Shown here: positions 7,195-13,440 of the stretch, in pieces
Numbering within the stretch: position 1 is the stretch's first letter
Layout of the letters: every line of letters starts with the position of its first letter
Assembly: GCA_003697085.1 (NCBI GenBank)
Contig: RFFU01000045.1
Coordinates: 1-28,586, forward strand
Length of the DNA stretch: 28,586 nt
Source of the DNA: Candidatus Hydrogenedentota bacterium
GTDB taxonomy: Bacteria; UBA8481; J006
Direction of reading: 5' to 3'
The notes under the pieces: model-generated
Told to the model about the DNA's origin: nothing
Databases searched by the model: none
The model's input: the letters and a program-made list of their open reading frames with translations, nothing else
Made by a program: the position numbers and the translations under genes

Positions 7195-7198
7195 GGTT

Positions 7199-7249: not shown

Positions 7250-7480
7250 AAGGGGGGGCAAGGCGAAAAATGGGAACCTTTTTCCGGATTGTGTCAGTCC
7301 GCTGATGGGCGCCGCCCCCGCGTATGATCGGGGCGGCCGAAAGGCGGTCCTCTACGGACCCGTTTTTGCAGACAAGATGCCTGCCGGCCGGCAGGCCTGC
7401 GCTCCCGGGAATTGCGCTCCTTGCTGGTTTTGTTGCAGGCAGGGATGCCTGCGCTCCCAGGAAGGCCTCTCTGCAGGAAA
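7250..7480. repeat. Hairpin-rich dispersed repeat block (CCTGCGCTCCC family)
   Basis: No gene is seen between nuoB and imuA. The block holds a GC-rich inverted repeat near 7310-7337, a short GGTCC-TCTAC-GGACC hairpin with a T-run (7346-7367), a perfect 18-base palindrome GCCTGCCGGCCGGCAGGC (7379-7396), and GCAGGCA-GGGA-TGCCTGC (7435-7452). The phrase CCTGCGCTCCC follows both of the last two. Related phrases lie at 13480-13530 and 13931-13970, so this is a repeat family in intergenic DNA. Confidence 0.65.
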
Positions 7481-7522: not shown

Positions 7523-7551
7523 TTGATGTCCGTACATTTGTACGGTACAAT
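7523..7551 (+). promoter_or_regulatory. imuA promoter with palindromic SOS-like operator in the spacer
   Basis: A sigma70-type promoter TTGATG (7523-7528), a 17-base spacer and TACAAT (7546-7551) lies just upstream of imuA. The spacer contains the perfect palindrome CCGTACATTTGTACGG (7530-7545, 7-base arms and a 2-base centre). Its GTAC-N4-GTAC core resembles the GTAC/GTTC-type LexA boxes known from cyanobacteria and some other phyla. Since imuA-imuB-dnaE2 cassettes are normally LexA-controlled, a LexA operator is the natural reading. That is an inference, as no lexA is in the window. Confidence 0.7.
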
Positions 7552-7564
7552 CTCTTTCGGAACA

Positions 7565-8512
7565 ATGAGAAAGCGGGCTCTCTTTTATACAACTCCTATC
7601 GAACCTCAAAGACCTCCTTTCGCTTCGAGAAGAGGTACGCGGCGGCCATCGGTGAAATACCGCCGACGAATCCGAACCCTCCCTCGAGGAGTCGTTACAG
7701 CCGAGAGGCTCCTCGCCTCTCTTCCCAACGCCGAATTCCGCTGGACACCCTCCTCGGTTGCCGGACGCGTCATTGAACTTCTTCCCGCATTTTCCGCTCA
7801 CGTTGCAACCTCAAATGCTTCTTCCTCGCCGCCTTTCCTTCCCCCCAACACGGTATTCCCTGCTCCGCTTCTCTCGCCGGCCGCGCTTCTCACGCTCCGT
7901 TTTCAACATTCCGGAAAACCTTCCGCTTGGATCGTCTCACGTGCGGCCTTTCCTTATCCTCCCGATCTCGAACAAATCGGCCTCGATCTCGACGCGCTCC
8001 TCTTCGTCAGGCTCGATGAATGTCGAAACGCCTACCGCGCCGCCGAGATTCTCCTTCACCAATCCGAAACGCTGGTCGTTCTCGATCTCTTCTTTCCCCG
8101 CATCGTTCCCTGCCCGAAACCTCTCGAAGCCCGCATTCTCGCTACGGCACGACGTTTCCGTTCCACACTCCTCGTGCTTCTTCCCCTCTCTGCTCGAAAC
8201 ATAGAATCGAACGTAAAAATGTCCGCCCTTTCTTCAAAATCCAAGCCTCGCGGAGGGGCGTTCCTTGATCCGTCCTTCAAACGACCGTCCTCCCGCCGTT
8301 CCAATGTCATCTCTTCTCCCATCTCATATCCCCGTGCCTTTCCCAACGCTTCTCTTCGGCTCCTCTCCTTCTCTTCCTCTTCCGCTCTTTCCTCCCGGCC
8401 TTCCGAAAATCACCGGCTTCTCTTATGGCGCGCCGTCCTTCTCAAAAGCAAAGGCTTTCTTCCGAAAAACAACATCACGGAGCCGTTTTATGACGCACAC
8501 GATCTGCCTTGA
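7565..8512 (+). CDS. imuA: ImuA, RecA-like protein of the mutagenesis cassette
   Basis: ImuA is a RecA-fold accessory protein that works with ImuB and the DnaE2 polymerase in damage-induced mutagenic translesion synthesis. The recognisable core is GRVIELLP, then WIVSRAAFPYPPDLEQIGLD, LDALLFVRLDECRNAYRAAE, ETLVVLDL and a following arginine-rich helix. These match the order of ImuA/RecA-like proteins. No Walker A motif is visible, as is common for ImuA. ATG 7565 gives 315 residues and lies only 14 bases after the -10 box, so the leader would be about seven bases. An internal GTG near 7651 is an alternative. The last third is Ser/Arg/Phe-rich with little similarity visible. It overlaps imuB by 23 bases, which couples translation. 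Confidence 0.8.
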   Translation: MRKRALFYTTPIEPQRPPFASRRGTRRPSVKYRRRIRTLPRGVVTAERLLASLPNAEFRWTPSSVAGRVIELLPAFSAHVATSNASSSPPFLPPNTVFPAPLLSPAALLTLRFQHSGKPSAWIVSRAAFPYPPDLEQIGLDLDALLFVRLDECRNAYRAAEILLHQSETLVVLDLFFPRIVPCPKPLEARILATARRFRSTLLVLLPLSARNIESNVKMSALSSKSKPRGGAFLDPSFKRPSSRRSNVISSPISYPRAFPNASLRLLSFSSSSALSSRPSENHRLLLWRAVLLKSKGFLPKNNITEPFYDAHDLP

Positions 8513-10271
8513 AATTCCGAATCCGGGAATCCGAATTCTCGAATTTCGCGGGCTCATCAGGGATGATCAGCCCGGGGGCATTCTTTCCGGAGGGCGGAAT
8601 CCGCACCTCGTCGAAGTCAACGATTCCGCCCGAAAAATCGGAATCCTCCCTGGAACCTCACTTTCCACGATCCTCGCCCTTCATCCTTCCTTCCAGACCT
8701 TCAGGCTTTCCCAACGGGAATTATTCGAGGAACATGCTCGTATAGCCGAAATACTCTTCTCCTTCACCCCCAATCTCTTTTTCACCGTCGATTTCCTCTT
8801 CCTCTTCTGGATAACACTCCCTGGAACCTCGCCCCAGAACCGCAAGATTTTTCTCAAAGAGATTCATTCGGTCCTCGCGAAGCAAGGATTTCCGACCCGC
8901 ATCTCCGAAGCCTCAACTCGTTTCGCCTCACGGCTGCTCTGTCTTACGATGCCGATCGGTGCGGAAAGGGATTTCTCAACCGCATTTCGATCCCTTCCCG
9001 AGGAGCAATCCGACCACTTTCTTCAACAGACTCCGCTCGAATCTTTTCGCTCTTTTCCGTCCTCTTTTTCCCAATCCTCTTCCTCGGAAATTCTTCTCTC
9101 CGACGAAACTCTTTCCTCGCTCGAGGCGCTCGGAGTTCGGACGCTTCAAGACCTCCTCTCCTTGCCGGAACAGGGTCTTCTCGAACGATACGAGCCGGCC
9201 TTGCATCGGCTTTATCGCCTTGGACGGGGCTGGGAGGATCTGCCGGTCATTCTTTATCGCCCCGCCGATATTCCCACGGCCCGGCGCCACTTCGAACCCG
9301 CAATCGAGGACGGCCGAAGGCTCATGAACGAAATACTCTCTCTTTTGGAAGAAACCCTGACGGTTCTTGAAGAGCAAGGCCGGGCCGTGAAAACAATCCA
9401 CATTCTCTTCGAGAGAGACTCTTTCTTCGAATCCCCGTCTCGCATTCGCACCCCTTCCTTCTCTCCCTTACTCCTCACCATCACTCCGGCGGAACCAACG
9501 ACCGATCGAAAGCGTCTCGGCAATCTCCTCCATCTTCATTTTGAAAGGAATTTTCTTTCTTCCCGGAGGAAACGGGATTCGCACCAAGCCCCCCGCCACA
9601 CCAAAGAAACTCCTTCTCCTGCTGGGAACACCTCCCGGAATCTTTCCTCCTTTTCCTGTTCGCAAATCGAAATTCTTCTCCTTCCGACAATACCCCCACT
9701 CGACACGGATTCTCCTCTTCTTTTCGATGAGACGCCCTCCCGCCCTTTGCTCGAATCCGTTTCCTCGTCTCCTCCCGCCTTCTTGCTCGATAAACCATCC
9801 CCCTTTGAGTCGTTCGGAGCCCGCATTGGAAACGCCCCTCCGAATCGGCCTTCCGGGATTTCACCTCGGATTCTCGAGAGCCTCTCCGCCTCCTTCGGCG
9901 CGGATGTCGTCGGGTTTCTCCGCGTCAACGATCTCTTCCCGCCGGAAGATCGGTTTACCTTCGTCACCGAACCGGATTTTCGCCTCTCCTTAAAGGCGTT
10001 TCGCGAACCCTCCGCGCGTCCTCCTTCCACCATTCGCAGATTCCTGCTCGAACCGCTTCCTTTTCCCGAAGCCGAAGTGTTTTTCGAAGAGAAAAAGAAT
10101 CTTGTTCGCGCCAACGGACGGTGGTGGGATGCTCCTTTCTCCTTTGAAGCCCTTCTCTTCGAGAGAGGCGACACGGGGTCGAAAGATTCCCGCGGTACTT
10201 CTCTTCCTTTCGGATTATGGATTCTCCGAAAAGCCGGAGAAGGAATCCGCATGATCGGCTGGCGGGAATGA
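8490..10271 (+). CDS. imuB: ImuB, inactive Y-family DNA polymerase homologue
   Basis: ImuB is the non-catalytic Y-family member that bridges the beta clamp and DnaE2 in translesion synthesis. The 593-residue product shows NDSARKIGILPGTSLSTILA (the finger-region helix of Y-family proteins), a little-finger/HhH region LSSLEALGVRTLQDLLSLPE and then LLERYEPALHRLYRLGRGWE, followed by a long divergent C-terminal half. The acidic residues expected in an active Y-family palm (DxD near the N-terminus, SxDE later) are not visible, as in known ImuB proteins. ATG 8490 is preceded by GGAG at a 7-base spacing inside the end of imuA. Its stop overlaps dnaE2 as ATGA. The middle is unusually rich in Ser, Phe and Pro, from a pyrimidine-rich coding strand. 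Confidence 0.82.
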   Translation: MTHTICLEIPNPGIRILEFRGLIRDDQPGGILSGGRNPHLVEVNDSARKIGILPGTSLSTILALHPSFQTFRLSQRELFEEHARIAEILFSFTPNLFFTVDFLFLFWITLPGTSPQNRKIFLKEIHSVLAKQGFPTRISEASTRFASRLLCLTMPIGAERDFSTAFRSLPEEQSDHFLQQTPLESFRSFPSSFSQSSSSEILLSDETLSSLEALGVRTLQDLLSLPEQGLLERYEPALHRLYRLGRGWEDLPVILYRPADIPTARRHFEPAIEDGRRLMNEILSLLEETLTVLEEQGRAVKTIHILFERDSFFESPSRIRTPSFSPLLLTITPAEPTTDRKRLGNLLHLHFERNFLSSRRKRDSHQAPRHTKETPSPAGNTSRNLSSFSCSQIEILLLPTIPPLDTDSPLLFDETPSRPLLESVSSSPPAFLLDKPSPFESFGARIGNAPPNRPSGISPRILESLSASFGADVVGFLRVNDLFPPEDRFTFVTEPDFRLSLKAFREPSARPPSTIRRFLLEPLPFPEAEVFFEEKKNLVRANGRWWDAPFSFEALLFERGDTGSKDSRGTSLPFGLWILRKAGEGIRMIGWRE

Positions 10272-13200
10272 AAAGCGAACCGCCTGTTCTTCTGGGCTGC
10301 CGCACCCACTTCTCCCTTCTGGAAGGCGCTTCTTCTCCCGAAGAGATCGTCCGAAGCGCCGCGGCGGCCGGCTACCGAACCATTGCGATTACGGATACCG
10401 CCACGGTAGGAGGAATTGTCCAGGCCCACGAGATTGCCTGCGAGACCGGAATCTCCCTCATCATCGGAACTCGGCTCGCTCTCGAGGAAGGTGATCACTT
10501 TCTGCTCCTTGCCAAAAACCGGTCCGGTTACGCCGCGCTCTGCCGGATCATCACAAAAGGCCGTCTCCGTGGCGAAAAGGGTACGGGATGTTACACACGT
10601 CGAGATCTACTCGAGGACGCCCGCGATCTCGTTCTCCTCTGGCTTCCCTCTCTCGCCGGAAATCCCTCTCCCTTCAAAGAGACGAAGAACTTCATTCGTG
10701 GATTGTTCCTTTGCGCGGAGGGCGATCTTTACATCGCCTACTCGCGTCATTTTCGTGAAGGCGATGCCTTTCGAGAGCGCCTCTTGCGCGCGCTCGCCTC
10801 AGAACTCGGCTTGCACCTCGTTCCCGTCCCCGAGGTCTTCTACCATCGTCCCGAGAGGCGAAGGCTTCAGGACCTTCTCACCGCCGTGCGGCTCAAACGT
10901 TCTCTCGACGCCTGCGGGCGAGCGCTCCTGCCGAACGACTCCTTTTTTCTTCCTCCTCCCTCTCTCTTCCTTGAACTTTACGCCGACGTCCCTTCCGAGA
11001 TTCGAAGAACGCAGACCATCGCGCAAAAATGCACCTTCTCTCTGGAGGAAATTTCCCATCGCTACCCGAAGGAAGCCGCGGGAGATCGGGAGAGTCTCGG
11101 GTATCTTCGTGAATTGACATTTCAAGGTGGAAGAGAACGTTTCCCCGAGGGACTCTCTCCCGAGATGGTTTGCCAGGTCGAACGGGAACTGGCTTTGATC
11201 GGCGAACTCAATTACGCCGACTACTTCCTCACAATGTATGACATTGTTCGGTTCTGTCGGAGAGAAGGGATTCTCTGCCAGGGGCGGGGGTCCGCCGCCA
11301 ATTCCACCGTCTGCTATCTTCTTGGAATAACCGCTGTCGATCCTGTCCGAATGGACCTTCTCTTCGAACGGTTTCTTTCGCGGGAGCGGGCCGAGCCGCC
11401 GGACATCGATCTGGACATCGAACACAAGCGGAGGGAAGAAGTTATCCAATACGTTTACCGCCGCTATGGGCGCGAGCGGGCCGCGATGGTGGGATGCGTG
11501 ATTCGTTTCCGCACTCGACAGGCCTTGCGGGACACGGGACGAGCCTTTTCCTTTTCCGAGGATATAACAGAGCGCCTCATCCGCGCTGCGGAGGATTGTG
11601 GAGGAATCGAACCCGGCATAGCGAAAACCGCGGGCTTGGAAGACACTCCGCGAATGCAAGCCGCGCTCCAGGTCGCCGCGGAACTTCTTCGCCGGCCCCG
11701 TCACCTCTCGATCCATCCCGGGGGTTTCCTGATCGGCCGCGATCCCGTAAGCCACATCGTTCCCATTGAAAACGCCGCGATGCCCGATCGGACTGTCATT
11801 CAGTGGGACAAGGATGATCTCGAATCCCTCGATCTCTTCAAGGTCGATCTTCTGGGGTTGGGCGCCTTGACACAGATTCGTATGACACTCGAACTCGTCC
11901 GAAAACACTATGGCCGCGCGCTGGATCTCTCTTCGATTCCGCCGGAGGACCCTTCCGTTTACGCTATGCTCCGCAAGGCCGACACGGTCGGCGTCTTTCA
12001 GCTCGAAAGCCGAGCCCAGATGAATATGCTTCCGCGGCTCAAACCGAGGACCTTCTTCGATCTCGTGGTTGAGATAAGCCTCATTCGGCCCGGGCCCATC
12101 ACCGGAGGAATGGTCCATCCCTACCTCAGACGGCGCAACGGCCTCGAACCCGTCTCCTTCCCTCATCCCTGCCTTGAACCTGTCCTCAAAAAGACGCTCG
12201 GCGTGCCGCTCTTTCAGGAACAGGTGATGAAACTCGCCGTCGTCGCCGCGGATTACTCCCCCGGAGAAGCCGATCAACTCCGCCGCGATATGGCTGCTTG
12301 GAGAAAAAACGGAAGAATCGACCGCCATCGCGAACGCCTCCTTTCCCGAATGAAGAAGAAGGGAATCCCCGAGGAATTCGCCTTGCGCATCTTCGAACAG
12401 ATTCGAGGTTTCGGAGAATACGGTTTTCCCGAAAGTCACGCCGCGGGTTTTGCGCTTCTCGCCTATGCCGCCGCCTATCTCAAACGGTACTTTCCCGCCG
12501 CATTCACCTGCGCACTTCTCAATGCCCAACCGATGGGCTTTTACTCCCCAGCAACCATCATCAACGACGCTCGGAGGCACGGGATCACCGTTCTTCCCGT
12601 CTCGGTCACCCGAAGTTTCGAATACGCCACGCTCGAAAGACTTCCGAGCGGCTCTCTCGGTATCCGCCTCGGACTCGATAGAGTCCGCGCCCTTCCGGAA
12701 AACGCAATTCGAAGCATCCTCGAGGAGCGAAACCGACAGCCCTTCGGTTCGCTCGAGGATTTCGCGGCGCGCACCAGGCTGAACCGAGACCACCTCGCGG
12801 CCTTGGCCCGCGCCGGCGCGCTGGCCCCCTTCGAACCCGACCGGAAGCGCGCTCTTTGGATCGCCCGCCGTCTGGCGCGAACAGCCCCCAAGCCCCTCGC
12901 TCTCCCTGAAGAAACCCTTCCTCTCTTCGCTGAACTGCGTGAGGATGAAGAGGTTCTCTGGGATTACCACGCTACCGATTGCAGTCCCCGGAATCATCCC
13001 CTCGCTTTTTGGAGAAAACGTCTTCACCAGAGCAAGGTCTCTTCGGCAAGCCATATCAATGCGACTCCTCCGCGCACGCGTGTTCGTTTCGCCGGCTTTG
13101 TCATCTGCCGACAACGACCTCCCACCGCCAAGGGAACCGTCTTTCTCACGCTGGAAGATGAAACCGGTCTCGTCAATGTCCTCTGTCGCAAGACGCTCTT

Positions 13201-13333
13201 CGAGCAAAACCGCTTTCTCGTCAAATACCGCCCCTTTCTCGGAGTCACCGGGCGGATTCAAAAAGAAGGAAGCGCCGTCCAGATCATCGCCGAGGAATTC
13301 TGGTCTCCGGAACACACCAAAACCACGAAATAA
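10268..13333 (+). CDS. dnaE2: Error-prone DNA polymerase III alpha subunit DnaE2 (ImuC)
   Basis: This is a C-family translesion polymerase that extends past lesions when held by ImuA/ImuB. The catalytic aspartates are in EPPDIDLDIEHKRREEVIQ (Asp379, Asp381) and FKVDLLGLGALT (Asp527). The DnaE2 hallmark CQGRGSAANSTVCYLLGITA precedes them. A thumb/finger region (GFGEYGFPESHAAGFALLAY), a tandem HhH region and a C-terminal OB fold (RVRFAGFVICRQRPPTAKG) follow. The N-terminal PHP domain has lost metal ligands: the usual HxH is G10-C-R12, and TDH is TDT (residues 42-44). ATG 10268 overlaps the imuB stop as ATGA and gives 1021 residues, near the family's usual length. The last codons run into a CCACGAA/CCACGGAA repeat, so the C-terminal tip is repeat-derived. 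Confidence 0.95.
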   Translation: MKSEPPVLLGCRTHFSLLEGASSPEEIVRSAAAAGYRTIAITDTATVGGIVQAHEIACETGISLIIGTRLALEEGDHFLLLAKNRSGYAALCRIITKGRLRGEKGTGCYTRRDLLEDARDLVLLWLPSLAGNPSPFKETKNFIRGLFLCAEGDLYIAYSRHFREGDAFRERLLRALASELGLHLVPVPEVFYHRPERRRLQDLLTAVRLKRSLDACGRALLPNDSFFLPPPSLFLELYADVPSEIRRTQTIAQKCTFSLEEISHRYPKEAAGDRESLGYLRELTFQGGRERFPEGLSPEMVCQVERELALIGELNYADYFLTMYDIVRFCRREGILCQGRGSAANSTVCYLLGITAVDPVRMDLLFERFLSRERAEPPDIDLDIEHKRREEVIQYVYRRYGRERAAMVGCVIRFRTRQALRDTGRAFSFSEDITERLIRAAEDCGGIEPGIAKTAGLEDTPRMQAALQVAAELLRRPRHLSIHPGGFLIGRDPVSHIVPIENAAMPDRTVIQWDKDDLESLDLFKVDLLGLGALTQIRMTLELVRKHYGRALDLSSIPPEDPSVYAMLRKADTVGVFQLESRAQMNMLPRLKPRTFFDLVVEISLIRPGPITGGMVHPYLRRRNGLEPVSFPHPCLEPVLKKTLGVPLFQEQVMKLAVVAADYSPGEADQLRRDMAAWRKNGRIDRHRERLLSRMKKKGIPEEFALRIFEQIRGFGEYGFPESHAAGFALLAYAAAYLKRYFPAAFTCALLNAQPMGFYSPATIINDARRHGITVLPVSVTRSFEYATLERLPSGSLGIRLGLDRVRALPENAIRSILEERNRQPFGSLEDFAARTRLNRDHLAALARAGALAPFEPDRKRALWIARRLARTAPKPLALPEETLPLFAELREDEEVLWDYHATDCSPRNHPLAFWRKRLHQSKVSSASHINATPPRTRVRFAGFVICRQRPPTAKGTVFLTLEDETGLVNVLCRKTLFEQNRFLVKYRPFLGVTGRIQKEGSAVQIIAEEFWSPEHTKTTK

Positions 13334-13440
13334 GGAAGAACCACGGACCACGCGGAAACCACGGAAGGAAAACGAACCACGGAATACGGGGAAACCACGG
13401 AAAGAAAACGAACTACGGAATACCCGGAATGCACGGAAGA
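13315..13440 (+). repeat. Tandem CCACGGAA repeat with 36-bp higher-order units
   Basis: A 9-12 base unit centred on ACCACGGAA is repeated about nine times. Two consecutive 36-base units (13357-13392 and 13393-13428) differ at only four positions. The array begins within the last codons of dnaE2 and continues past its stop. A and G dominate the spacers, and no reading frame in it looks like a real protein. Confidence 0.8.

Follow-up and report, generated by a model that had tools for sequence, protein, structure and literature searches.

The window analyzed here, a stretch of 28,586 nucleotides from a "Candidatus Hydrogenedentota" bacterium, contains three genes that make up a standard imuA-imuB-dnaE2 translesion/mutagenesis operon (Table 1). 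The genes are closely coupled, with a 23-base overlap between imuA and imuB and an ATGA overlap between imuB and dnaE2. In profile searches, DnaE2 scores 1251 bits with the error-prone polymerase model NF004225 (cutoff, 939), and it retains the active-site acids in a PDIDLD motif around residue 378. ImuA has no match in Pfam; it is divergent yet still recognizable through its similarity to the cassette ImuAs of related organisms (E value of ~1e-12). The gene coordinates, the NF004225 match, and the ImuA homology thus bear out the original prediction of a complete cassette. ImuB gives a weak match to PF00817 (20.3 bits, under the cutoff) and is 20 to 28% identical to the ImuBs of its relatives. 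In an alignment with these proteins, both of its acidic active-site motifs are seen to be replaced, VDL by CLEIP and FWLDASG by FWITLPG, in agreement with the predicted inactivity of this protein. The loss of the catalytic acids is an ordinary property of ImuB, which has been described as catalytically dead (PMC6511836). The ImuB segment that aligns with the QxGLF-like clamp-binding motifs of the relatives reads DSPLLF, without the Gln of the usual Q-x-L-F pattern. The divergence of ImuA and ImuB is far above that of DnaE2. Directly 3' of dnaE2, positions 13308 to 13430 of the window are occupied by tandem-like repeats, each roughly 18 bases long (ACCACGGAA...).

Table 1. Features of the imu operon and its promoter region (positions in the window)
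Feature	Position	Strand	Description
-35 hexamer TTGATG	7523..7528	+	imuA promoter; from promoter search
Operator palindrome CCGTACA-TT-TGTACGG	7530..7545	.	Core GTACATTTGTAC at 7532-7543; predicted LexA2-type box
-10 hexamer TACAAT	7546..7551	+	Abuts the palindrome; 13 bases 5' of the imuA ATG
imuA	7565..8512	+	ATG start, 315 aa; very divergent RecA-like accessory protein
imuB	8490..10271	+	ATG start, 593 aa; Y-family-like, active-site acids missing
dnaE2/imuC	10268..13333	+	1021 aa; error-prone C-family polymerase, PDIDLD active site

The combination TTGATG-17-TACAAT is the only sigma-70-like promoter found between positions 7195 and 7700 (9/12, with 0.2 expected), and the short distance between its -10 hexamer and the imuA start codon leads us to expect a very short leader. 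The palindrome fills 16 of the 17 spacer bases (7529 to 7545), just as had been predicted, although calling it perfect was a slight overstatement, since pairing extends to 14 of its 16 positions, in two 7-base arms around a central TT. One has to ask whether such a repeat could have arisen by chance or serve an unrelated repressor. Bare 7+2+7 repeats are indeed common in the window (5 versus 3.3 expected), but only 60 of 20,000 shuffles (0.3%) placed one inside the 43-bp promoter segment; this exact placement in the only promoter, the homologous sites in relatives, and the agreement between the recognition helix of LexA and the half-site (see below) make both readings quite improbable. The region just upstream of the promoter (positions 7382 to 7463) carries two copies of an interspersed repeat built around CAGGCAGGCCTGCGCTCCC, which is also seen in about 20 other places in the genome; with up to 2 mismatches allowed, the genome has 22 copies of it, versus none for the reversed control.

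Homologous sites are found in front of cassette genes in both of the closest DnaE2 relatives. G076, whose DnaE2 is the closest (55% identity), has GAACGTATGTAC-GC-TATATG before imuA, and one of its lexA genes is preceded by GTACGCTTGTTC-GC-TATTAT. G050 has GAACATTTGTAC-AC-TATACT before a lexA-imuA-imuB-dnaE2 cluster. A further site, ATACATTTGTAT-GC-TATCAT, is present in the Arenicellales metagenome-assembled genome (MAG) L055. In all these promoters, as in the window, the -10 hexamer starts two bases past the second half-site. Searching both strands of 2.2 Mb of locus sequence for the operator followed by a -10 hexamer resulted in 12 matches, 4 of which precede imuA, a cassette lexA, or dnaE2, in a scan that is not fully independent because the spacing rule had been derived from some of the scanned sites. 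In the gammaproteobacterium Tahibacter harae, the identical 12-mer GTACATTTGTAC directly precedes the cassette lexA. The GTAC-N4-GTAC form is therefore no phylum mark, contrary to the expectation that it would be phylum informative. In the LexA subfamily described below, the half-site follows a residue of the recognition helix more closely than it follows the phylum. The one other genome of the same order encodes a very divergent LexA with the box ATAC-N4-GTAT and lacks DnaE2, so that it offers no close-relative footprint of imuA.

Two candidate comparators were set aside: a Pseudomonas plasmid cassette, which lacks lexA and carries a CTGT-N8-ACAG site of the E. coli type, and the Algiphilus sequence CTGTACATACGTACAG, which fits both box types and was left uncounted as independent support. 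Among the related loci, we also observed the same operator and -10 geometry as in the imu promoters in the recA promoter of G076 (L163:1435; AAACATATGTTT-GG-TATGAT); a dnaE2 in a Krumholzibacteriia MAG that is located apart from imuA-imuB and has a promoter of its own, AGACAATTGTCT-GG-TAGCAT (L051:5934-5949); and a Rhodanobacter plasmid (L173:864-7554) with an S24 peptidase-imuA-imuB arrangement, in which an opposite-strand gene separates dnaE2.

The core of the palindrome, located between the -35 and -10 hexamers, fits the GTAC-N4-GTRC consensus, published as the site of LexA2 in front of the mitomycin C-induced imuC operon of Pseudomonas (PMC5544203). In Pseudomonas putida, LexA2 controls the lexA2-imuA-imuB-imuC operon (PMC3901139; see also Abella et al. 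2004/2007, cited in this literature). The three imu genes, their order, the site sequence, and, as argued here, a cassette-directed LexA are common to P. putida and the window. In P. putida, however, lexA2 is part of the operon and there is a second, LexA1 regulon, whereas the genome studied here encodes a single LexA, whose gene is located elsewhere without a preceding site. Split imu cassettes, with lexA apart from imuAB-dnaE2, have been described previously (PMC8072749, section 2.2); unlike in those cases, the separated LexA here still belongs to the cassette-linked subfamily.

This LexA, a protein of 225 aa encoded on contig C7, has the genome's sole match to PF01726. It consists of the winged helix-turn-helix (wHTH) and S24 domains, scoring above the cutoffs for PF01726 and PF00717 and passing TIGR00498 with 139 bits, and the residues of self-cleavage are conserved (VPAGG with the Ala-Gly site, GDSM with the Ser, and ATVKRL with the Lys). 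The cassette is on contig C75, so that lexA is not adjacent to imuA. The tetranucleotide composition of C7 correlates with that of the window (r = 0.95), and C7 shares repeats with other contigs; it is thus unlikely to be foreign and is no obvious contaminant. In a maximum-likelihood tree that did not include the Pseudomonas LexA2 protein, this LexA falls into a clade (support, 100/99) with L132, L053, L060, L055, and L161, whose members include G050, G026, an acidobacterial MAG (L053), a myxococcal MAG (L060), and the Arenicellales MAG. In G050, L060, and L055, lexA is followed by imuA. The clustering with cassette-encoded proteins indicates a LexA of the cassette type whose gene has become separated from the cassette.

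By both tree and profile, it belongs to a cassette-linked LexA subfamily that is represented in G050, L053, L055, L060, and the phyla of G026 and G029. The lexA genes of this subfamily normally stand at the head of lexA-imuA-imuB-dnaE2 operons, in phyla other than that of the window. The subfamily profile has matches in 27 of the 80 genomes of the G026 phylum, part of which are other LexA classes, and in 6 of 195 genomes of the G029 phylum. The operator of this subfamily, NNAC-N4-GTNN, overlaps the promoter, as does the site in the window. Counting the members that score above 230 bits, with the window's own left out (n = 24), we found this dyad in 21 promoters, versus 10% of random stretches. 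All members with Ala as the second residue of the helix motif (KAV, RAV, AAV, or HAV) have AGAC half-sites (18 of 18), and 4 more clear cases from a second phylum bring the total to 22, although these sequences are related to each other and stand for fewer independent events than this count suggests. Members with Ser at this position never have AGAC: the half-sites are ATAC in L055, GAAC/GTAC in L132, and ATAC on one side in L179, the first two being solid comparators and the third a weak 5/7 dyad. Most of the subfamily thus combines Ala with AGAC-N4-GTCT, whereas the LexA studied here has Ser in its recognition helix (RSPDTARGH) and the palindrome has GTAC on both sides, a pairing consistent with the Ser-type pattern. 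It appears from this covariation that a single residue of the recognition helix sets the half-site in the cassette-linked subfamily.

A different class of regulator is suggested by the fact that 14 of the 16 palindrome bases are the same as in the mer operator, TTGACT-CCGTACATGAGTACGG, which is found in 2,202 plasmids and, in the one record opened, lies between merR and merT. The palindrome could then be the operator of a mercury-type MerR family protein that activates the promoter by untwisting its spacer, and the genome does encode a MerR with mercury-like cysteines (C91:132-143; L006), which has its own dyad promoter, TTGACTCTGTACCAAGGTACGGGGTTTAGAAT. MerR activation, however, needs a spacer of 19 to 20 bp; it is 19 bp in the mer operator and 17 bp at imuA. 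The half-sites in the homologous cassette promoters (GAAC, ATAC, or AGAC) are not mer-like, and we know of no link between imu genes and metals. Activation by a MerR protein is, accordingly, quite improbable, and repression by LexA remains the reading that we prefer.

How far LexA control might extend beyond the cassette was assessed in the genome assembly (3.2 Mb in 145 contigs, 94.6% complete). The window contains a single GTAC-N4-GTAC (0.01 expected); the genome as a whole has 11, compared with 2 for the reversed control. The ten other sites were rejected as regulon members: a MerR family gene has one of them in its promoter, and the rest are within long open reading frames. A relaxed search with GWACRNNYGTWC was discarded as too noisy, with 48 sites versus 29 for the reversed control, mostly GC-rich GAAC/GTTC pairs. 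The composite operator and -10 pattern WAC-RNNY-GTW-NNN-TANNNT, searched in both directions through the whole genome, gave 5 matches versus 8 in the control, and the only plausible promoter among them is that of imuA. The scanned region upstream of lexA has no AC-N4-GT site at all, which means that the usual autoregulation is missing, and neither recA gene has a dyad of the needed form upstream. Both of these recA genes are full length and pass TIGR02012 (C23, L016:3088-4527; C103, L017:3095-4153), and one of them has a long low-complexity N-terminal extension. For Deinococcus deserti, two RecAs have been described that play distinct parts in the activation of an imu-type cassette (PMC8072749).

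The original prediction had raised the possibility that GTAC-N4-GTAC is the LexA box of the lineage, to be checked by a genome scan upstream of recA and lexA. The class of the LexA and the site itself would agree with such a box insofar as the cassette is concerned. Its absence in front of lexA and the two recA genes, which the original prediction itself had named as counterevidence, together with the finding of a single convincing composite site in the genome, nevertheless argues against it and makes a broad regulon with this motif as a general SOS box very improbable. The Gram-positive (CGAAC-N4-GTTCG) and cyanobacterial (RGTAC-N3-DGTWCB) LexA boxes, which precede recA and lexA, resemble the window's palindrome in the N4-spaced register and in their half-sites; they belong to different LexA subfamilies, and the palindrome's form is absent from those two positions here. 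The lack of sites at lexA and recA does not speak against control of the imu operon by LexA, since a LexA2 directed at the cassette has precedent. Judging from the distribution of sites, the regulon seems to be reduced to the imuA promoter, with a LexA that would be dedicated to the cassette and not to lexA or recA.

Because relatives have homologous sites, the sole LexA is of the cassette-linked class, and the core matches the LexA2 consensus, a LexA operator is the best explanation of the palindrome, which is most likely a LexA binding site and hence a known kind of DNA damage switch. That part of the original prediction is supported, whereas its extension to a lineage-wide SOS box is not. 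We put the probability that the imu operon is held off by LexA through this predicted LexA2-type operator at roughly 0.8. A LexA dimer bound to CCGTACATTTGTACGG in the promoter spacer would block RNA polymerase; upon DNA damage, activated RecA would trigger the self-cleavage of LexA, and the operon would be released.

A wider reading is more tentative, and we would rate it at slightly less than even odds: a LexA subfamily accompanying the cassette through several phyla may switch its operator by one helix position (Ala with AGAC, Ser with RTAC), and in this poorly sampled lineage its representative may have become the sole LexA, acting at a single promoter and leaving lexA and the two recA genes outside SOS control. 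LexA is known for its evolving binding sites, with 17 motifs mentioned (PMC8565304), and the cassette-linked subfamily provides a compact example, open to testing, of a half-site that is apparently set by one helix residue. If true, a genome in which the sole LexA guards nothing but the error-prone polymerase operon would cleanly exemplify an SOS response reduced to the control of mutagenesis.
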